Assembly (NCBI GenBank): GCA_003543135.1
Contig: DPJG01000032.1
Span: forward strand, 1-64,000
DNA from: Rheinheimera sp.
GTDB lineage: Bacteria > Pseudomonadota > Gammaproteobacteria > Enterobacterales > Alteromonadaceae
Direction of reading: 5' to 3'
Length of the DNA stretch: 64,000 bases
The first letter of the stretch is position 1. Every line of letters starts with the position of its first letter. Both the position numbers and the translations under genes were made by a program. The notes below the pieces were generated by a model. That model was given only the letters and a program-made list of their open reading frames with translations, had not been told where the DNA came from and did not search any database. Shown in pieces: positions 39,732 through 49,080 of this stretch.

Positions 39732-40991
39732 TTATTGCAAGCTGGCCTGCGGTGTTGTGTTTAAACGCCAGGTGACCAGCACTGTGCCCAGCAAAAAGGC
39801 GCTGGACAGATAAAGACAAGCGTGAAAACCATAAGCCTGATACACCCAGCCGGATAACAAAGTGCCAATCAGCCGGCCTATGGCGTTGGCCATATAATAA
39901 AAACCCACATCGAGCGACACACCGTCGCGACTGGCGAGGCTTACAATCAGATAGCTGTGTAACGAAGAATTCACCGCAAAGACAGCGCCAAATAACAACA
40001 AACCACCGACTAACAGCCAAAGGGGGTTGGCGCTTTGTTGCATGGCAAGGCTGATTAACAGCGGCAGGCCACAAAGCAGGCCAGCCCAGAAGAGAGCAGT
40101 GTGCTGGTTGGGTACCTTGCCGGTGTTTTTACCTACCTTACTTCCGGCTTTGCTGCCCGCTTTGCTACCGGTCAAAGCAGGCGCCAACGCCTGCACAGCG
40201 CCATAAGCAATCACCCAGCAAGCTAAAAAAGCACCCACTTCGGTTTGTGACCAGGCAAAGTTGCCGGATAAATACAGTGGCAGCGCAATCACAAACCAGA
40301 TATCGCGCGCGCCAAATAACAATAACCGCGCTGCCGACAGCCGGTTAATGGCGGCGCTTTTGGAGAACAAGTCTTTAAACTTGGGTTTAAAACTGCTTTT
40401 GCCCAAGTCTTTTTTCAGCAGCACTAAACTTAGCAGCCAGACAAGCGCAAGTGCAGCGGCCATGGCCGCGACTGCGCCCTGAAAACCATACAGGCTCAGT
40501 AACAGCCCACCTAAAAAGAAGCCAACGCCTTTGAGCGCATTTTTTGAGCCGGTTAAAATGGCCACCCATTTGTATAAAGCTCCCTGGGCATTTTCCGGCA
40601 GCAGTAGCTTCAGTGAGCTTTTGGCGCTCATTTTGTTGAGGTCTTTGGCAATGCCGGACAGCGCCTGCGCGGCCATCACCCAAAGCACAGTCAGAAACCC
40701 GGAGGGCACCAGCAACATGGCCAGAGCCAGCACCTGCAGCGCCAGGCCTGTATTCATGGTTTTATTCAGGCCAATACGGGCACCCAGCCAGCCGCCCACT
40801 AAGTTGGTGACCACACCAAAAAACTCATAAAACAAAAACAACGAGGCAATAGCCAGCGGACTGTAACCCAGCTGATAAAAGTGCAGCACTATTAACATGC
40901 GCAGCGCACCGTCAGTCAGGGTAAAAGCCCAGTAGTTGGCGGTGACCACCAGATATTGTTTCAGGCCGGTACTGGCCGGTAGTCCAGACAT
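39732..40991 (-). CDS. arsJ: ArsJ, organoarsenical (1-arseno-3-phosphoglycerate) efflux MFS transporter
   Basis: 419 residues from ATG 40991 (AGGAAA upstream). About twelve membrane segments with MFS loops. The start YLVVTANYWAFTLTDGALRM and the DLNKMSAKSSLKLLLP segment are typical of ArsJ. ArsJ exports the unstable arsenate ester that the partner GAPDH makes from arsenate, giving arsenate resistance without reduction. The central loop contains a short tandem repeat (GSKAGSKAGSKVGKNTGK). It is the last gene of the leftward ars operon, directly after the GAPDH gene. Confidence 0.92.
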   Translation of the reverse strand: MSGLPASTGLKQYLVVTANYWAFTLTDGALRMLIVLHFYQLGYSPLAIASLFLFYEFFGVVTNLVGGWLGARIGLNKTMNTGLALQVLALAMLLVPSGFLTVLWVMAAQALSGIAKDLNKMSAKSSLKLLLPENAQGALYKWVAILTGSKNALKGVGFFLGGLLLSLYGFQGAVAAMAAALALVWLLSLVLLKKDLGKSSFKPKFKDLFSKSAAINRLSAARLLLFGARDIWFVIALPLYLSGNFAWSQTEVGAFLACWVIAYGAVQALAPALTGSKAGSKAGSKVGKNTGKVPNQHTALFWAGLLCGLPLLISLAMQQSANPLWLLVGGLLLFGAVFAVNSSLHSYLIVSLASRDGVSLDVGFYYMANAIGRLIGTLLSGWVYQAYGFHACLYLSSAFLLGTVLVTWRLNTTPQASLQ

Positions 40992-41134
40992 TGTGGTTTC
41001 CTGGTCATCAGGTAAAGCTGCAACTAAGCCGTTACAGCCATTTGACACACTTTGCTAAAACACAGCTGCGTGGCAGGGGCAGCTCTGAGCTGGCGAGCGA
41101 CAGCCGGATCCCCCGCACACTGTGGTTGAAAAAG

Positions 41135-42142
41135 TTAAGCTGCGCTGCCAACCAGCCGCGCCAGTTCGACGGTGCGATTGGCGTAACCCCATTCGTTGTC
41201 ATACCAGGCGTAAATTTTTACCTGAGTGCCGTTCACCACCATAGTCGACAAAGCATCAATGACGCTGGAGCGTGGGTCGGTTTTATAATCAATGGAAACC
41301 AGCGGCCGCTCTTCATATCCTAAGATATTTTTCAGCTCCCCCTCTGCCGCGGCTTTGAGTAAAGCATTTACCTCTTCGGCTGTGGTAGTGCGTTCCACTT
41401 CAAACACACAGTCGGTCAGTGACGCGTTGGCCAGCGGCACCCGCACTGCATGGCCATTTAACCGGCCCTTCAGCTCAGGGAAAATTTCGGTAATAGCTGT
41501 GGCTGAACCCGTGGTGGTTGGAATTAAACTGCTGCCACAGGCGCGGGCACGGCGTAAATCTTTGTGCGGAGTATCCAGAATCGACTGGGTGTTGGTTAAG
41601 TCGTGAATAGTGGTGATAGAGCCATGTTTGATGCCTAAATTTTCATGAATGACTTTGACCACAGGGGCTAAACAGTTGGTGGTGCAGCTGGCGGCTGTCA
41701 CTATCTGGTGTTTTGCGGCATCAAAAAGCTGATGATTCACGCCCATCACCACATTCAGCACACCTGGCTCTTTCACCGGTGCACTGACCACCACCCGTTT
41801 TACGCCTTGCGCCAGATACTGCTCAAGCACAGCTTTGTTTTTCATTTTGCCGGAACATTCAATGACCAAATCACAGCCCGACCAGTCGGTGTCATTGATG
41901 TTTTTATGCTGGCTGACCGCAATCATTTTGCCGTTAATCAGCACTGTATTGCCCTCAGCCTGCGCCTGATGCTGCCAGCGGCCATGCACTGAGTCAAAAT
42001 TGAGCAGATGGGCAAAAGTGGCGGCGTCACCGGCCGGGTCGTTAATTTGTACAAATTCAAATTCAGGCCAGTCAAAAGCGGCGCGCAAAGCTAACCGGCC
42101 GATACGGCCAAAACCGTTGATCCCTACTTTAATGGTCATCAT
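41135..42142 (-). CDS. ArsJ-associated glyceraldehyde-3-phosphate dehydrogenase
   Basis: 335 residues. Full GAPDH: NAD-binding [14 protein letters not shown] at the N-terminus and the catalytic SCTTNC in the middle, with [21 protein letters not shown] after it. In ArsJ operons this enzyme uses arsenate in place of phosphate to form 1-arseno-3-phosphoglycerate, which ArsJ exports. Position between the thioredoxin-like gene and arsJ makes that role more likely than glycolysis. The start could be 42142 or the next codon (both ATG, AGAGGA upstream). Confidence 0.93.
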
Positions 42143-42154
42143 GTATCCTCTGTT

Positions 42155-42391
42155 TCAGCTTTTCAGCCACTGTTCAATCTGTTCGCGATGTGGAATGGAG
42201 CCTGTATGCACCACAAGGTTATTTAATACAACGGCGGGTGTGCTCATCACACCAAAGCCAATGATTTGTTGCATATCTTCAATCTTTTCTACCTGAACCT
42301 GGATGCCAAGCTCGGCGGCAATACGCTCAATGGATTCAACGGTTTTGGCACATTTGCTACAACCCATACCTAACACTTTAAATTCTTTCAT
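42155..42391 (-). CDS. Small thioredoxin-like (redox-active disulfide) protein
   Basis: 78 residues. A CxxC motif (CSKC, about 11-14) lies in MGCSKCAKT, followed by a compact thioredoxin-like fold with the conserved cis-proline strand STPAVVLNN. These short proteins often accompany arsenic and DUF318-permease genes and may reduce or carry the metalloid or recycle ArsC. It overlaps the upstream phosphatase gene by four bases (ATGA), 12 bases before GAPDH. Confidence 0.85.
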   Translation of the reverse strand: MKEFKVLGMGCSKCAKTVESIERIAAELGIQVQVEKIEDMQQIIGFGVMSTPAVVLNNLVVHTGSIPHREQIEQWLKS

Positions 42392-42894
42392 GATTGAGTC
42401 TCCGCAACTTGTTGAAAATACGTGATATGTGCAGGCAAGGTTAAGGCATAAGGCCGTAGCGCCTGCACTTTGTGTTGCACAACATCCAGTGGCTCACCAC
42501 GCTCCAACAGAATTTGCGCTGCTATTAAGCCGGTACGACCCGAACCACCTTTGCAGTGTATTGCTACTTTATTCCCTGCAGACAGCAGCTGATGCACCTG
42601 CGGGCCAGCCTGTTGCCAGGCTTTGACAAAATCAGCCGCCGGAGCTTCGTCGTCAGCAATAGGGCAGTTAAACCACCCTAAACCTCTGGCGGCGCAATGC
42701 TCAGCCAAAGTGGCAGCCTGATGTGCTTCCAGCTCGGCCTGAGGCATCAGTGTGATAAGCGCTGTTGCACCCGCTTGTTGCAGTGTGGTCAGGGCATCGG
42801 CCACCGACGAGCCTTTAGTGCCGGGGCAGGGCGTAAAAATAAGGCCGGCAGGCTTGTGCGGCTCCAGCGGTAACAAGTTATACGGATGGGTCAT
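42388..42894 (-). CDS. Dual-specificity/CDKN3-like protein phosphatase in the ars operon
   Basis: 168 residues from ATG 42894 (AAAGGA upstream). The phosphatase loop HCKGGSGRTG (CX5R, Cys near residue 115) and a preceding acidic loop (CPIADDEAP) give the signature of dual-specificity or tyrosine phosphatases. Such genes occur in some ars operons; their substrate is not known. It lies between acr3 and the thioredoxin-like gene and is translationally coupled to the latter. It is not an ArsC, which is encoded separately. Confidence 0.85.
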   Translation of the reverse strand: MTHPYNLLPLEPHKPAGLIFTPCPGTKGSSVADALTTLQQAGATALITLMPQAELEAHQAATLAEHCAARGLGWFNCPIADDEAPAADFVKAWQQAGPQVHQLLSAGNKVAIHCKGGSGRTGLIAAQILLERGEPLDVVQHKVQALRPYALTLPAHITYFQQVAETQS

Positions 42895-42924
42895 CACAAT
42901 TCCTTTATCAGCTCAGTGAAAGTT

Positions 42925-43968
42925 TTATGCATGGGCAAACCAGTGACGGGTGCTATTGGCAAACCACACCAGCGACAACATAACCGGCACTTCCACCAGC
43001 ACACCCACGACTGTGGCAAGTGCAGCCCCTGAATGCAGGCCAAACAATGAAATAGCCACAGCAACCGCCAGTTCAAAGAAGTTACTGGCGCCAATCATGC
43101 CGGCAGGGGCGGCAATGTTGTGTGGCAGTTTAAGTTTGCAACCAACAAAATAACTCAGGGCAAAAATGCCATAGGTTTGCAGCAGCAGTGGTATTGCAAT
43201 CAGCACTATGGCCAGTGGCTGGCTGAGAATAGTCTGGGCCTGAAAACCAAACAGCAGCAGCACTGTGGCCAATAAACCAAACACAGACCAGGGTTTCACG
43301 CGCTGGGCAAAAGCTACGATAGCTTTGTCGGTAGTGGCTGCGCCGTGCCGGGTTACACGCCGTGTTAAATAGTGGCGGGTAAACACACCGGCCAGCAGTG
43401 GCAGCACTACATAAAGCAATACCGACAACAATAAGGTAGACCAGGGCACTGTGATATCTGATACCCCCAGCAGCCAGGCGCTGATCGGCGCAAAAGCAAA
43501 AATCATAATCAGATCATTCACCGACACCTGCACCAGGGTGTAGTTGGCATCCCCTTTGGTCAATTGGCTCCAGACAAACACCATGGCGGTGCAGGGTGCT
43601 ACCCCCAGCAAAATCATGCCCGCTATATATTCGGTAGCGGTCTGTGGGTCGACCCAATCGGCAAACAACACACGGAAAAATAACCAGCCCAGCAGCGCCA
43701 TGGTGAAGGGTTTCACCAGCCAGTTGATCACCAGCGTCAGCAGCAAACCGGCTGGTTTTTTACCGACATCACGAATGGCAGCAAAATCAACCTGCACCAT
43801 CATGGGATAAATCATCAGCCATATCAGGACGGCAATCACCGCATTGACCTGGGCATACTCCAACGAGGCCACCAGGCTAAACCACTGGGGTTGCCATAAA
43901 CCTGCGGCGACACCTGCGGCCATAGCCAGTGCTACCCAGACTGATAAATAACGTTCAAAAATACCCAC
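42925..43968 (-). CDS. acr3: Arsenite efflux transporter Acr3
   Basis: 347 residues, ten membrane segments, the usual Acr3 size. It expels arsenite across the inner membrane using the proton gradient. The conserved cysteine in [15 protein letters not shown] and the [18 protein letters not shown] segment are Acr3 hallmarks. It lies 21 bases after arsC and before the phosphatase gene in the same operon. Confidence 0.95.
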
Positions 43969-43989
43969 ATGAACTCCTTAATAACTGCT

Positions 43990-44490
43990 TCAGTTTGACG
44001 GCTCAAAGCCGGTAAGTTGCAGCGGAAAACGTGTTGCAATGACCGATAACAGGGTGCTGTCCGGTTTTGTTGTCGCCTGAAACAATGCTTTGGCACGTTG
44101 TTGCAGCGCCAGATACAAAGCAGAAAATTCTTGTTTTTGTACATCCGGACTCAGCCCGTAACGACTGGGGTCTGGTAGCGACCAGTGTGCTTTCACAGCT
44201 TTGCCAAACCAGACCGGGCAAGATTCACCTGCCGCTTGATCGCAGACGGTAATCACCAGATCCGGGGCAAAATCGGCCATTTCATCCCAGCTTTTACTGG
44301 TCAGTCCCGCAGTGTCGATTTGCCAGTGTTTCAGATACTGCAGCGTCAACGGATGTATGGTGCCGCGCGGCGTCGAGCCAGCACTTTGTACCCTGATATT
44401 GACTCCGGCCTTGATGGCTTCAGCACGAAAAATGGCCTCAGCCAAAATGCTGCGGCAAGCGTTATGGGTACATAAAAACAAAATATTCAT
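43990..44490 (-). CDS. arsC: Arsenate reductase ArsC (low-molecular-weight phosphatase type)
   Basis: 166 residues. It reduces arsenate to arsenite for Acr3. The P-loop CTHNACRS starts at Cys7 (CX5R), and a redox pair follows in VCDQAAGESCP. SLPDPSRYG is the Asp-Pro loop. This is the phosphatase-fold family dependent on thioredoxin or glutaredoxin, not the E. coli ArsC fold. It is the second gene of the operon, 35 bases after arsR. Confidence 0.94.
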   Translation of the reverse strand: MNILFLCTHNACRSILAEAIFRAEAIKAGVNIRVQSAGSTPRGTIHPLTLQYLKHWQIDTAGLTSKSWDEMADFAPDLVITVCDQAAGESCPVWFGKAVKAHWSLPDPSRYGLSPDVQKQEFSALYLALQQRAKALFQATTKPDSTLLSVIATRFPLQLTGFEPSN

Positions 44491-44525
44491 CAGGGTTCTG
44501 CACTCATGGCGTTTTGTTCACTTGG

Positions 44526-44873
44526 TCAGGGGCAACAGGCTTTTGCCCGTTCTGGTCTTTCACCCATGGCACAAAGATTATTCAGCAAGGGCGCCAGCAG
44601 AGGGGTATTTTGTGCCCGGGTTTGCTCCAGCGTTTGTGTGGCCCACTGCGGTAATTCCGGATTTAACCGGTAAAACACCCATTGTCCCTGACGGCGGTCC
44701 AATAACACTTTGGCACTTCTGAGCATTGCCAGGTGACGGGATATTTTAGGTTGGGATTCACCAAGGGCCGATGTCAGTTCACAGACACAAAGTTCGCCCT
44801 CCTGCGCAATCAGCAGCAGGGAAAACAAACGGGTTTCATCGGCCAGTAACTTAAAAAATTCGACAGGGTGCAT
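44526..44873 (-). CDS. arsR: Arsenic-responsive repressor ArsR
   Basis: 115 residues, SmtB/ArsR winged helix. The As(III)-binding CxC motif is ELCVCEL in helix 3, as in E. coli ArsR, and a CC pair sits near the C-terminus. DNA-recognition helix: QPKISRHLAMLR. First gene of the leftward operon; a perfect 18-base palindrome about 55 bases upstream is its probable operator and lies between it and the divergent permease. Confidence 0.94.
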   Translation of the reverse strand: MHPVEFFKLLADETRLFSLLLIAQEGELCVCELTSALGESQPKISRHLAMLRSAKVLLDRRQGQWVFYRLNPELPQWATQTLEQTRAQNTPLLAPLLNNLCAMGERPERAKACCP

Positions 44874-44965: not shown

Positions 44966-45026
44966 TTTTTCCAGATGTCAATGCTATGCTGCCAGCATCA
45001 ACTGCAACAGCTACAGAGGAATGCAG

Positions 45027-46031
45027 ATGGATATATGGGCCTGGCTTAACAATCAGCTGCTGAAAATGCAGTGGTTATCTGATCTTGTCAAAATGCTGGT
45101 AGAAGATGTTTTTGGTTTGTCGATGCAGTCGCGTTGGGGCGCCAGCCTGCATTTTTTTATTTATGACGTGCTGAAGATTTTTATATTACTGACAGTGCTT
45201 ATTTTTACGGTGTCCTGGGTACAGAGTTATTTTCCACCTGAGCGCACCAGAAAAATTCTGGGCGGCATGCAGGGGTTTAAAGCCAACCTGACCGGCGCGT
45301 TAATGGGCACTATCACGCCATTTTGTTCCTGTTCATCTATTCCGCTGTTTATTGGTTTTAGCAGTGCCGGTTTGCCGCTTGGTGTGACATTTTCATTTTT
45401 AATTTCTTCACCGCTGGTGGATTTAGCCTCGGTAATTTTATTGGCCAGTATTTTTAACTGGTCTATTGCCATCGCTTATGTGGTGGTGGGCATTGTGCTG
45501 GCGGTGATTGGGGGCACTTTGATCAGTAAAGCCAATATGAGCCGATATGTGGAATCTTTTGTGCTGCACAGCCCGGTGCTGGATATACCGCAGGCAAAGT
45601 TGAGCCCAAAAGACCGTTTTGATTATGCAACAGCGCAGGTTGGGGATATTTTCCGGCGGGTGTGGTTTTATGTGCTGCTTGGGGTAGGAATTGGCGCTGC
45701 AATTCACAACTGGGTGCCACAAGCCTGGGTAACTTCGGTACTGGGTCAGGACAACTGGTGGTCGGTTTTTGTCGCAACGCTGATTGGTGTGCCTATGTAT
45801 GCCGATATCTTTGGCACCTTGCCGGTGGCTGAAGCTTTGGTGGGTAAAGGCGTTGGCCTTGGCACAGCGCTGGCTTTTATGATGTCGGTGACGGCGTTAT
45901 CTTTACCATCGCTGATCATGCTGAAAAAGGTGATTAAACTGCCGTTATTGTTATTTTTTGTGTTTATTGTGGTGTGCGGCATTATGGTGATTGGCTATTT
46001 GTTTAATGCATTTGCTCATTTGCTTATCTGA
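45027..46031 (+). CDS. arsP: ArsP-type permease (DUF318/YraQ family)
   Basis: 334 residues from ATG 45027, AGAGGA six bases upstream; an ATG at 45021 touches that site. About eight membrane segments. The family motif TPFCSCSSIPLFIGF (about 98-112) contains the paired cysteines used by ArsP to move trivalent organoarsenicals. A second conserved loop reads IGVPMYADIFGTLPVAEAL. It diverges from arsR. Whether it exports methylarsenite or another soft metalloid cannot be told from sequence alone. Confidence 0.85.
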   Translation: MDIWAWLNNQLLKMQWLSDLVKMLVEDVFGLSMQSRWGASLHFFIYDVLKIFILLTVLIFTVSWVQSYFPPERTRKILGGMQGFKANLTGALMGTITPFCSCSSIPLFIGFSSAGLPLGVTFSFLISSPLVDLASVILLASIFNWSIAIAYVVVGIVLAVIGGTLISKANMSRYVESFVLHSPVLDIPQAKLSPKDRFDYATAQVGDIFRRVWFYVLLGVGIGAAIHNWVPQAWVTSVLGQDNWWSVFVATLIGVPMYADIFGTLPVAEALVGKGVGLGTALAFMMSVTALSLPSLIMLKKVIKLPLLLFFVFIVVCGIMVIGYLFNAFAHLLI

Positions 46032-46189: not shown

Positions 46190-47596
46190 TCAGGCTTGCA
46201 ATAACACCAGATCCAACACAGCGCCACCGCGGTGCACACCGCCTTCGTTGCTGTTGGCATCTTTGGTGCGGCATAAATAACCGCCATAAAGCGCGTCGGT
46301 GCCAAGGCTAAAAATGCCAAGCTCAGTGATATGGCCCAGGCTGATGCGGGTGTTGCCGCCACGCAGGCTGGTGAATGCTTCAGCACGCACAAAACATTGA
46401 ATAGGCGCCATCAGTAAATCTACGCTGTCGGCTTTGGCGAGTTGTTGCCGGGCATCTTCGCCGCGCGCCACATTGCCACCACCTTCCTGCTGTGTTTTAT
46501 ACCAATAACCCTGTGCAATCAGCTGTTCTGCCTGAGCTTGGCTTAAGTCGCTGACGGCCGATGAAGGCACCACAGCTTGTTGCAATAAACGAAGATCTGC
46601 ACCGCTGAGGCCAAATTGACTGGCAACTGCAGCCGGGTTGTGCAGAATAAGCGCCGTAAGCCTGTGCTGAAACCATTTGCTGCCGGTGAGCTGACCTGCC
46701 AGAGTCGGGCACTGTGTCACAGCGCTTTGTTCCAGTCTGGCCCGGAATAACCAGACATTGTTATCAAGCTCGGTACCCGGGTTATAAGCTGTGCGCCAAT
46801 ACAATAAATCTACCCGCTGCTTTTGCCAGATCAGCTGCTGTTGGCTGTTAAAACTGGCCTGCAGCAGCGCTGCCACTGTCACTCTTTGCACCTGCACACC
46901 CAGGCGCTCCACTTCATCACAGAGCAGTTGCTGGTCAAAAATATTATCTTCATTAGCTTCCACCACTATCAGCATCAGCGGCTGCTGTTGGTGTGACGTT
47001 GTGCTTTGCTGTGCCTGTAATATCGCCGCTTGTGCCAACAGCCTTGCCTGCAGTGCCGTAGCATCATTCGGCGCATAATGGCCCTGCAGATGTTGTTGCC
47101 ACAGCTGCTGATAAGCCGCGTTTAACGGCCCCATGCCGGCGGCGATGGGGTTTGATTCGACCCAGCGCCACCGTAGCTTCCGATCCAGCAACAAATCGTG
47201 CCGGTTCAGCATCAGATTCCGGCTTTTTATGCTGTGGTTTTGCCCGATGCGTCGTTTGACAGAGAGCGCTTTCAGGCGACGCCAAATCTCACCCGGCACT
47301 GTGTCTGAGCTGACAAGTTGCTCTGTTTGTGCCAGTAACCAGTCTGGTTCGTCAGCGGCTTTGGCCTGCAGTTGTCCAAGCAATTGCGCCAGTTTTTGTG
47401 CCGCAGCAAACTGCTCTGTGCTCAGCTGCCAGGGGGTTAATGAAACCGGCACCGGCACAAAGCCCTCAGCACCTTGTAACCCAAGCTGTGCTGCCCGCAG
47501 TTGCTGGTTGATCTGCTCTGGTTTTAATGGCGCCCAAGGCTGGTGGCGGTATAAGCTGGTTGTCACTTGTGCTGATGTGTTTTGTACAGTTGTCAT
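46190..47596 (-). CDS. Eukaryotic-type glutathione synthetase homologue
   Basis: 468 residues, close to human glutathione synthetase (474) and unlike bacterial GshB (about 316). The family pattern is present throughout: LMLIVVEANEDNIFDQ, YWRTAYNP, CPTLAGQLTGSK, KTQQEGGGNVARGED, ITELGIF and CRTKDANSNEGGV. Residues equivalent to human substrate, Mg or ATP contacts are R132, E147, N149, R268, Y271, K307, K367, E371, E425, R443 and K445. Two differ: serines 149 and 151 of the human dipeptide-binding loop are A152 and G154, and D458 is E451. One base after the permease gene, so one operon. Expected reaction: gamma-Glu-Cys plus Gly to glutathione, possibly altered. Confidence 0.85.
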   Translation of the reverse strand: MTTVQNTSAQVTTSLYRHQPWAPLKPEQINQQLRAAQLGLQGAEGFVPVPVSLTPWQLSTEQFAAAQKLAQLLGQLQAKAADEPDWLLAQTEQLVSSDTVPGEIWRRLKALSVKRRIGQNHSIKSRNLMLNRHDLLLDRKLRWRWVESNPIAAGMGPLNAAYQQLWQQHLQGHYAPNDATALQARLLAQAAILQAQQSTTSHQQQPLMLIVVEANEDNIFDQQLLCDEVERLGVQVQRVTVAALLQASFNSQQQLIWQKQRVDLLYWRTAYNPGTELDNNVWLFRARLEQSAVTQCPTLAGQLTGSKWFQHRLTALILHNPAAVASQFGLSGADLRLLQQAVVPSSAVSDLSQAQAEQLIAQGYWYKTQQEGGGNVARGEDARQQLAKADSVDLLMAPIQCFVRAEAFTSLRGGNTRISLGHITELGIFSLGTDALYGGYLCRTKDANSNEGGVHRGGAVLDLVLLQA

Positions 47597-47597
47597 G

Positions 47598-48536
47598 TTA
47601 TTCCCCTGTTGTGCTCAGCAAAAAGTCGATGCTAAAGCCGGTGATACAGGCCGTCAGAAACACGACAGCGATAAAAGCGAGCAACAAAGGCCACTGAAAA
47701 ATCCGTTTTAAAATAATCATCTCCGGCAAACTGGCACCAGCGCCGCCTATGGTCAGTGCCATCACAGAGCCATAGCTCATGCCTTTGCCCACCAGGCTCA
47801 GTGCCAGCGGGATCATCGAACTGGCTCTAACATACAACGGAATACCAATCAGCGCCGCGATCGGGATCAAAATCCATTGATTTAAATTGCCAAGCTGCTG
47901 AAAAAAACCTGTGGGTATATAACCGTGGATCACTGCGCCCACCAGCACTCCAAACAGCAGGTGTGGCAGGAAACTTTTGGTTTCAGTCAAAGCCCGGCCA
48001 AACAGCGATTGCAGATAAGGACCAGAAAAAGACCGCTCTGGTGCAGGAGCCGCCACAGCAGCATCGCTGCTGCAACCACAGGACTTCAGTTCAGGCAGCG
48101 TGACAAAACGCTGAAAATTCAGCCAGGACAACAGCACACCGGCCAGCAGGGCAATCAGCAATACAGCTGCACTGTACAGCAAAGTTAAAGCAGGCCCGAA
48201 TACACTGAGCAGCAATACCACCAGCACAGGGTTTAACAGCGGCGAGGTCAACAAAAAGGTCATTACAGGGCCAAAAGCGGCATTGGCGCGCAGCATGCCG
48301 ACCAGCATCGGCAGCGTGGAGCAACTGCAAAAAGGGGTAATAGCCCCGAGCGCCGCCGCAGTCAGGTAACCCCGGCCGCCACTGAGTAAGGCCTGAATAC
48401 GTGCGGCCGGAAACCTGTCTTGCAACACCATCACCAGCATGCTGATCAGTATAAATAACAACAATAATTCGCCGAGGGTGCCAATAAAAAACTCAACACT
48501 GGCGGCAAAAGCAGGGGAAAACATGGGCTCGTTCAT
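47598..48536 (-). CDS. Second DUF318 (ArsP/YraQ-like) permease
   Basis: 312 residues, about eight membrane segments. The TPFCSCSTLPMLVG motif (about 67-80) matches the ArsP-type cysteine motif, and the IGIPLYVRASSMIPLALSL loop the second conserved region. A cytoplasmic-type loop carries an extra cysteine motif, KSCGCSSD (about 151). It differs from arsP at 45027 by its length and this loop. It is the first gene of a two-gene operon with the glutathione synthetase and diverges from the second ArsR. Confidence 0.82.
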   Translation of the reverse strand: MNEPMFSPAFAASVEFFIGTLGELLLLFILISMLVMVLQDRFPAARIQALLSGGRGYLTAAALGAITPFCSCSTLPMLVGMLRANAAFGPVMTFLLTSPLLNPVLVVLLLSVFGPALTLLYSAAVLLIALLAGVLLSWLNFQRFVTLPELKSCGCSSDAAVAAPAPERSFSGPYLQSLFGRALTETKSFLPHLLFGVLVGAVIHGYIPTGFFQQLGNLNQWILIPIAALIGIPLYVRASSMIPLALSLVGKGMSYGSVMALTIGGAGASLPEMIILKRIFQWPLLLAFIAVVFLTACITGFSIDFLLSTTGE

Positions 48537-48553: not shown

Positions 48554-48631
48554 ATATTTCGAACATCTTGGAAATAATAATATTTCGACAAACATGGAAG
48601 TGTCAAATTATATTTCGATCTTTGTGGAAGT
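48554..48631. promoter_or_regulatory. Three-copy dyad operator for the second ArsR
   Basis: ATATTTCGA-N6-TGGAAGT (or TGGAAAT) occurs at 48554-48575, 48580-48601 and 48610-48631. Each copy is an imperfect dyad (ATTTC...GAAAT) of the size bound by an ArsR/SmtB dimer. All lie between the permease and the divergent arsR-type gene, nearer the permease. Confidence 0.75.
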
Positions 48632-48741
48632 ATTTTGCCAAAAAGCATAGACTGCAAAGCGAAGCTGCGGGCGCAAACCGCGTCTGTCCTGATGTTGGGA
48701 CAGATGGTTCCGGGCTTCAGACAAAAAATTGCGGAGTGATA

Positions 48742-49080
48742 ATGGAAGTAAACAGCGAACTGGAACTGGCCGCCGCCCAATTGGCTGAACTGGGGCACCC
48801 AACCCGGCTTGGTATTTTCAGAGTATTGGTGCGGGCAGGGCGTAGTGGCGTGGCAGTGGGAGACATTCAGCTGGCGCTGGATATTCCGGGCTCAACTTTG
48901 TCTCATCATATCAGCCGGATGAGCAAGGTGGGCCTGATGACGCAGCGCCGTGATGGCCGCACCCTGTATTGCAGTTTAGCCTTTGAAACCGTCGAGGCGC
49001 TCCTGGGCTTTTTATATGCCGAATGTTGTATTGGCATGCCACAAGCGCAGACTGCACCACAGGGCAATTGTTGTGATTAA
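48742..49080 (+). CDS. ArsR/SmtB-family repressor with C-terminal cysteine pairs
   Basis: 112 residues from ATG 48742 (GGAG upstream); an in-frame ATG at 48568 lies in the operator array and is rejected. Winged helix with GHPTRLGIFRVL and STLSHHISRM. It lacks the CxC of the classical ArsR. Instead it has CC in YAECCIG (about 96-97) and CC near the end (GNCCD). Paired C-terminal cysteines are used by the methylarsenite-selective Shewanella ArsR, so organoarsenical sensing is a reasonable guess. It diverges from the permease/glutathione-synthetase operon. Confidence 0.85.
   Translation: MEVNSELELAAAQLAELGHPTRLGIFRVLVRAGRSGVAVGDIQLALDIPGSTLSHHISRMSKVGLMTQRRDGRTLYCSLAFETVEALLGFLYAECCIGMPQAQTAPQGNCCD

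Follow-up and report, generated by a model that had tools for sequence, protein, structure and literature searches.

The ArsP permease of C. jejuni exports methylarsenite and trivalent roxarsone, and not arsenite, according to the available text of PMC6205960. In Shewanella putrefaciens 200, the arsP promoter is controlled by a methylarsenite-responsive ArsR, which carries a Cys pair like that of AfArsR and needs only two Cys residues, as described in the accessible parts of PMC12124457, PMC13236881 and PMC11868830. No low-molecular-weight thiol has been assigned to ArsP-type permeases in those portions of the literature that were examined.

The presence of a glutathione synthetase in arsenic modules is known from a figure legend, and a plasmid copy is known beside arsR-arsC, as far as the available parts of these sources go. 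Thus, the legend of figure 3 of PMC6429310 colour-codes a glutathione synthetase and a permease in the ars/arr modules compared with those of Shewanella sp. O23S; the adjacency of the synthetase, the regulator and the function are not discussed in the examined portion of that text. The glutathione synthases encoded by IncN-type plasmids and by a plasmid of Citrobacter arsenatis belong to the family of the enzyme described here, with approximately 28-29% identity over the matched part, and on the C. arsenatis plasmid (L007, 4664-7062) the gene is divergent from arsR-arsC. Plasmid records matching our protein at E up to 1e-5 number 341, of which 199 are from Escherichia and 101 from Salmonella. 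In five annotated plasmid regions, no permease gene lies directly beside the synthetase gene; in plasmid NZ_CP038139, ArsR-type and permease genes are found approximately 2.6-4.2 kb off, past IS26 and a replication gene. A literature search covering few subscription papers returned, in the text available, no description of an arsP-synthetase unit, of its operator-like site or of its function.

The unit that is the subject of the present work is found in a stretch of 64,000 nucleotides, here called the window, of a Rheinheimera genome (34 contigs, 3.99 Mb) with one PF03917 gene. By description, it resembles the arsR-arsP pair of S. putrefaciens 200 in its AfArsR-like regulator with a vicinal Cys pair, and differs from it by the synthetase, which is not mentioned there in the accessible text of PMC12124457 and PMC13236881. 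On the reverse strand, the gene of an ArsP_1/DUF318 permease (47598..48536; 312 residues, with a TPFCSCST motif in the alignment) is followed, after a single base, by that of a eukaryotic-type glutathione synthetase homologue of 468 residues, an ATP-grasp peptide ligase (46190..47596); both the spacing and the nature of the second protein had been proposed in a preliminary description of this DNA and are borne out here. The divergent gene of an ArsR/SmtB-type regulator, with matches to HTH_20 and HTH_metalloreg and a vicinal Cys pair near the C terminus, lies on the forward strand (48736..49080) and starts at GTG 48736 or ATG 48742. Toward the permease and synthetase genes points a sigma-70-like promoter, TTGACA-18-TATTAT (48577..48606, reverse strand), which agrees with the consensus in 11 of 12 positions and is predicted from this match rather than from a mapped start. 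Three exact copies of a 20-bp operator-like site, TTCCANNNNNNTCGAAATAT, accompany it on the same strand, at 48554..48573, 48580..48599 and 48610..48629, the second of which reaches from between the -35 and -10 hexamers into the -10 hexamer, as placed by the promoter scan. We refer to the three genes as arsR-arsP-GSS.

Two neighbours lie outside the unit. An ars operon on the reverse strand (39732..44873; arsR, arsC, acr3, phosphatase, ArsJ-type gapdh and arsJ) encodes an ArsR, an LMW-type ArsC, Acr3, a dual-specificity phosphatase, an ArsJ-type GAPDH and ArsJ; the ArsC scores under the cut-off for the thioredoxin type and for the glutaredoxin type alike. A second, distant ArsP_1 permease (45021..46031, forward strand; PF03773, 228.1 bits) is encoded divergently from the operon's own arsR and convergently with the synthetase gene.

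The distribution of the synthetase family was surveyed in overlapping samples of the window's family, order, class and phylum, in which PF03917 was found in 13/196, 49/394, 2/369 and 10/398 genomes, respectively. The class sample thus holds only two cases, the window's own genome included, and the ten of the phylum sample are all from the window's order. In family and order together, 58 genomes carry PF03917: 14 have the window's kind, 43 have an intact gene from a different clade, and the remaining one, G317, has a copy broken by a stop codon. This last gene (L105, G317:C1:3067351-3068755) is matched in two pieces, contains a single TAG stop and lies near an Acr3 gene. Neighbourhoods were fetched for the 57 other genomes, and their genes labelled by similarity to the window proteins. 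In a tree of 62 synthetases, which includes three outside rows and three plasmid rows and leaves out L004, L005 and L100, the window's kind forms one clade of 14 with support of 99/99, apart from 45 other bacterial rows, with the caveats that branches are long and that the bootstrap had not settled; the three plasmid copies fall in the other bacterial clade.

Within the clade of 14, the permease gene is directly upstream of the synthetase gene in all cases except L106, and an arsR-type regulator is present in all except L030, so that the conserved linkage on which the preliminary description depended is found for each partner in 13 of the 14 loci. Among the 44 genomes of the other group, which takes in G317 with its broken gene, the permease is near in 4 and this regulator in 11. 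This other clade (L064-L098, many of family f21), 33 of whose 44 members are without regulator in the fetched stretch, also has the altered pocket described below. When all open reading frames of 120 residues or more in the flanks are compared, eight different surroundings can be told apart for the 14 loci (the window with L028 and L029; L027 with L031; L030 with L032; L103 with L104 and L107; and four singles). Permease and synthetase genes overlap, or are separated by at most 4 bases, in 9/13 loci, two overlaps of 47 and 88 bases being dependent on the choice of start, and gaps of 10-65 bases are found in L103, L104, L107 and L108. A chance neighbourhood can be discarded, as the pair recurs in eight surroundings along with operator-like sites.

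Relatives of the locus were found in two Rheinheimera genomes (81 and 62% identity) and in three of Alishewanella (48-50%). In the Alishewanella stretches, which extend 4-6 kb to both sides of the synthetase gene, the arsR-permease-synthetase unit stands without an ars operon. This finding, along with the promoter-like sequence and sites that the unit has of its own, rules out that it is part of the neighbouring ars operon. Recurrent linkage and its own operator-like sites make arsR-arsP-GSS, as judged from sequence, a self-contained unit, separate from that operon. The view of the preliminary description, which had placed permease and synthetase in an arsenic island, is thereby refined: the pair belongs to a unit distinct from the ars operon beside it. 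The synthetase and permease trees agree in their main groups. L026 is discordant: the permease tree places it next to L027, the synthetase tree outside the group of the other nine. In both trees L108, which comes from a different family of the order, joins the rows of Rheinheimera and Alishewanella, although on long branches, which suggests transfer of the unit; apparently, then, the unit has been passed between lineages.

The 468-residue protein belongs to the eukaryotic-type glutathione synthetase family, with scores over the Pfam gathering thresholds for both PF03917 (93.2 versus 25 bits) and PF03199 (61.7 versus 20.9 bits), as the preliminary description had expected. It scores far below the cut-off of TIGR01986, the equivalog model of glutathione synthetase (124.1 versus 329.8 bits). 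The fold and the ATP-grasp and Mg residues of the family are present. In an alignment of 59 bacterial sequences, from which L004, L005, L100 and L109 were left out, the equivalents of human E144, N146, K305, K364, E368-GGG, E425, R450 and K452, which we take to be the ATP/Mg positions, are conserved in 59/59, and so is the Arg that holds the Cys moiety. The ATP-grasp residues that the preliminary description had relied upon thus remain in place on alignment. The bacterial sequences do not keep human N373 and E399, and they have Glu in place of D458, as in potato. A dead enzyme is unlikely, since the listed ATP/Mg positions are kept in all 14 members of the clade, even though those of N373 and E399 are not; very probably, to judge from these residues, the protein is an active ligase. 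L109 (G671:C2), in one genome of the class, encodes a far more eukaryote-like glutathione synthetase (302 bits), in which the second pocket serine is kept.

With the human (2hgs), potato (5oes) and yeast (1m0w) enzymes, the window enzyme shares the whole fold, the ATP/Mg residues, the Cys-binding Arg and most gamma-Glu residues. It differs from the eukaryotic glutathione synthetases in an identity of only about 22-24%, in its score under the equivalog cut-off, in Ala and Gly in place of S149 and S151, and in His-Arg in place of A462-A463. In the potato enzyme six side chains (an Arg, a Glu, two Gln, an Asn and a Tyr) hold gamma-Glu, according to the available text of PMC5919673. Five of the six are kept in the window's clade, where one Gln is replaced by Glu in 12/14, and all six in the other bacterial clade, the identity of the second gamma-Glu-holding Gln being inferred in the alignment. 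The equivalents of human S149 and S151 are Ala in 58/59 and Gly in 59/59 bacterial sequences. The replacement (A152 and G154 in the window enzyme) had been read in the preliminary description as predicting a new acceptor; taken alone this argument fails, because the two serines of the potato enzyme bind the Cys of gamma-Glu-Cys via the backbone, as stated in the accessible part of PMC5919673, and because the gamma-Glu side chains are mostly kept.

The loop for the terminal amino acid is a better pointer to a changed product than the serines, at the level of sequence. It reads Ala-Ala in eukaryotes and Leu-Pro in homoglutathione synthetase (PMC5919673, in the parts available). In the window enzyme, which is bacterial and arsP-linked and in these respects also differs from the soybean homoglutathione synthetase (3kal), it reads H455-R456, and His is found in 58/59 bacterial sequences, followed by Arg, Lys, Gly, Asn or Ser. 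The loop is not decisive for the product, because a nematode enzyme, with changed loop residues, still prefers glycine (PMC5919673, same portion). Taken together, the conserved pocket and the altered loop point to gamma-Glu-Cys as the acceptor, possibly joined to an amine other than glycine, and the chances that the product differs from glutathione appear to be roughly even. GshA is found in all 14 genomes of the clade, as is a GshB over the curated cut-off, and therefore the enzyme would be dispensable for basic glutathione synthesis; that it is the host's sole glutathione synthetase is out of the question for the same reason. Furthermore, the same Ala/Gly pocket and His loop are found in the other bacterial clade, which has few permeases, so that the chemistry of the enzyme need not concern arsenic.

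The regulator of the window is an AfArsR-like protein with the vicinal Cys pair near its C terminus, AfArsR being its best match in the PDB (6j05, E 2.4e-12), with the pair aligned. The pair is found in 26/26 regulators, as ECC in 25 and as QCC in L101. Another CC follows close to the end of the window regulator, which has no Cys at the spacing of AfArsR C102; in 8/26 rows no Cys comes after the pair. Given this second C-terminal pair, the window regulator may or may not be selective for methylarsenite over arsenite.

As for the operator-like sites, the window holds four matches with at most two mismatches, three of them exact, as compared with 0.27 expected. With a slightly looser pattern, the only exact copies in the whole genome are the three of the promoter region; with at most one mismatch, the genome holds 11 matches, the same number as for a reversed control pattern, i.e. 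there is no enrichment. A scan for perfect long inverted repeats revealed no site common to the loci. A generalised pattern, allowing at most one mismatch within 300 bases upstream of the regulator gene or 60 bases inside it, is found in 43/45 loci, and the density of sites near the regulator is approximately 100-fold that in the rest of the same loci. This pattern was drawn by eye from 19 regions, 18 of which are recounted among the 45 loci. In the loci outside the defining set it is found in 26/27 (18/18 of those fetched later from the permease side), L023, L004 and L005 among the 27 being near copies of loci in that set. Two loci were missed: in L105 the regulator match is perhaps a different ArsR, and in L106 the regulator reading frame is overlong and encloses two matching sites. 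Among the 34 synthetase genes without a regulator match in the fetched stretch, which include L030 and L109, sites are found within 350 bases upstream in only two (L073 and L087), which argues against a general control of synthetase genes by these sites in such loci.

The window permease matches PF03773 well over the threshold (149.3 versus 32.3 bits), and is thus an ArsP_1-domain protein; it also shows weak matches, below the respective cut-offs, to the models of a Cu/Zn exporter and of SaoE, and no relative in the PDB is found by sequence at E up to 1. In the family sample, permease matches at E up to 1e-60 occur in 47/196 genomes. Ten of these permeases score over 455 bits, and nine of the ten adjoin a synthetase gene; the tenth (G185, L114) pairs in the permease tree with the synthetase-linked L026, and the absence of the enzyme there looks like a loss, as far as sequence can tell. 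Of 27 matches at 360-436 bits only one has an adjacent synthetase gene (G003, of the other bacterial type), which implies that export by ArsP relatives generally needs no such enzyme; the remaining 13 matches score approximately 210 bits. For 19 of the remaining 26, plus G185, the loci were fetched from the permease side, and a regulator gene adjoins the permease gene in 17 of the 19, the exceptions being L125 and L126.

Sister units of a different composition were found in L128, L129 and L132, where the gene behind arsP, in the usual place of the synthetase, encodes an M14 carboxypeptidase of the cytosolic type (L128:6027-7181, L129:5999-7141 and L132:3696-4847). These proteins have an HPGE motif and, further on, an invariant His, to which we assign the zinc roles of M14 carboxypeptidases. 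In the permease tree, the carboxypeptidase-linked permeases group with the synthetase-linked ones of L103, L104 and L107 and, as they fall among them, the synthetase units have no permease clade to themselves.

In the explanation that we prefer, arsR-arsP-GSS provides resistance to a thiol-seeking metalloid, and the ligase supplies a thiol tripeptide for export. Taken as a whole, this account has somewhat less than an even chance of being correct; that the unit serves metalloid resistance, probably against trivalent organic arsenic, is for its part quite probable. The target would most likely be a trivalent organic arsenical such as methylarsenite. The regulator would release the DNA once its Cys pair binds the arsenical, and permease and ligase would then be produced together; the ligase would couple gamma-Glu-Cys, provided by GshA, with an amino acid, possibly one other than glycine, and so furnish locally a tripeptide thiol that may capture the arsenical, and the permease would export the arsenical itself or its thiol conjugate. 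Export of the conjugate is the boldest step of this proposal. A bolder version, which we hold to be rather unlikely, would make the unit a bacterial counterpart of eukaryotic glutathione-conjugate efflux, with a new gamma-Glu-Cys-X thiol (X not being glycine), export of its conjugate, a methylarsenite-type sensor and, in the sister units, a carboxypeptidase acting on a like peptide.

The enzyme could also make plain glutathione, as a stress-induced second copy, while the permease exports the free trivalent organoarsenical. The largely kept gamma-Glu-Cys pocket (five of six gamma-Glu side chains and the Cys-binding Arg) would agree with this, as would the indication, in the accessible text of PMC5919673, that changed loop residues need not alter the preference for glycine. 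However, a GshB over the curated cut-off is already present in all 14 hosts, His occupies the glycine loop in 58/59 sequences, beyond what drift would suggest, and the score is far under the equivalog cut-off, so that this simpler role is possible, if somewhat doubtful. The presence of an M14 carboxypeptidase gene behind arsP in three sister units, at the synthetase's place, brings up a further candidate, namely a peptide-type arsenical, with the ligase modifying an arsenic-containing amino acid or peptide and the carboxypeptidase carrying out the reverse step. This is improbable, there being three cases only, in which the carboxypeptidase could equally trim a glutathione conjugate, and the kept gamma-Glu pocket fitting gamma-Glu-Cys better.

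Two other possibilities shift the chemistry or the signal itself. The title of Nemeti 2012, according to which glutathione synthetase promotes arsenate reduction by arsenolysis of glutathione, and the GAPDH-ArsJ pair in the same island make it conceivable that the enzyme runs in reverse with arsenate, yielding an unstable gamma-Glu-Cys arsenate for export or reduction, by analogy with the GAPDH that supplies ArsJ. Such arsenolysis is very improbable: the regulator resembles the As(III)-sensing AfArsR, the C. jejuni permease exports trivalent organic and not pentavalent forms (PMC6205960, available text), and the stand-alone units of Alishewanella have no adjoining ars genes. Another metal, or an electrophile, might instead be the real signal and cargo, as hinted at by the permease's sub-threshold matches to the Cu/Zn exporter and SaoE models and by the location of the unit near MerR and further efflux-type genes in G042 and G185. 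Yet AfArsR is the best PDB match of the regulator, and in Rheinheimera ars genes adjoin the unit, which leave a cargo other than arsenic with little likelihood.

How ArsP-type permeases handle thiol-reactive arsenicals in a thiol-rich cell is an open question, for which the arsR-arsP-GSS unit offers a compact test, with three genes, a defined operator-like site, an enzyme open to assay with gamma-Glu-Cys and various amines, and related units in nature that lack the enzyme or have a carboxypeptidase in its stead. Here an enzyme family of the eukaryotic type would have an accessory role in hosts already equipped with GshB and, if its product is not glutathione, it would make a new bacterial thiol.
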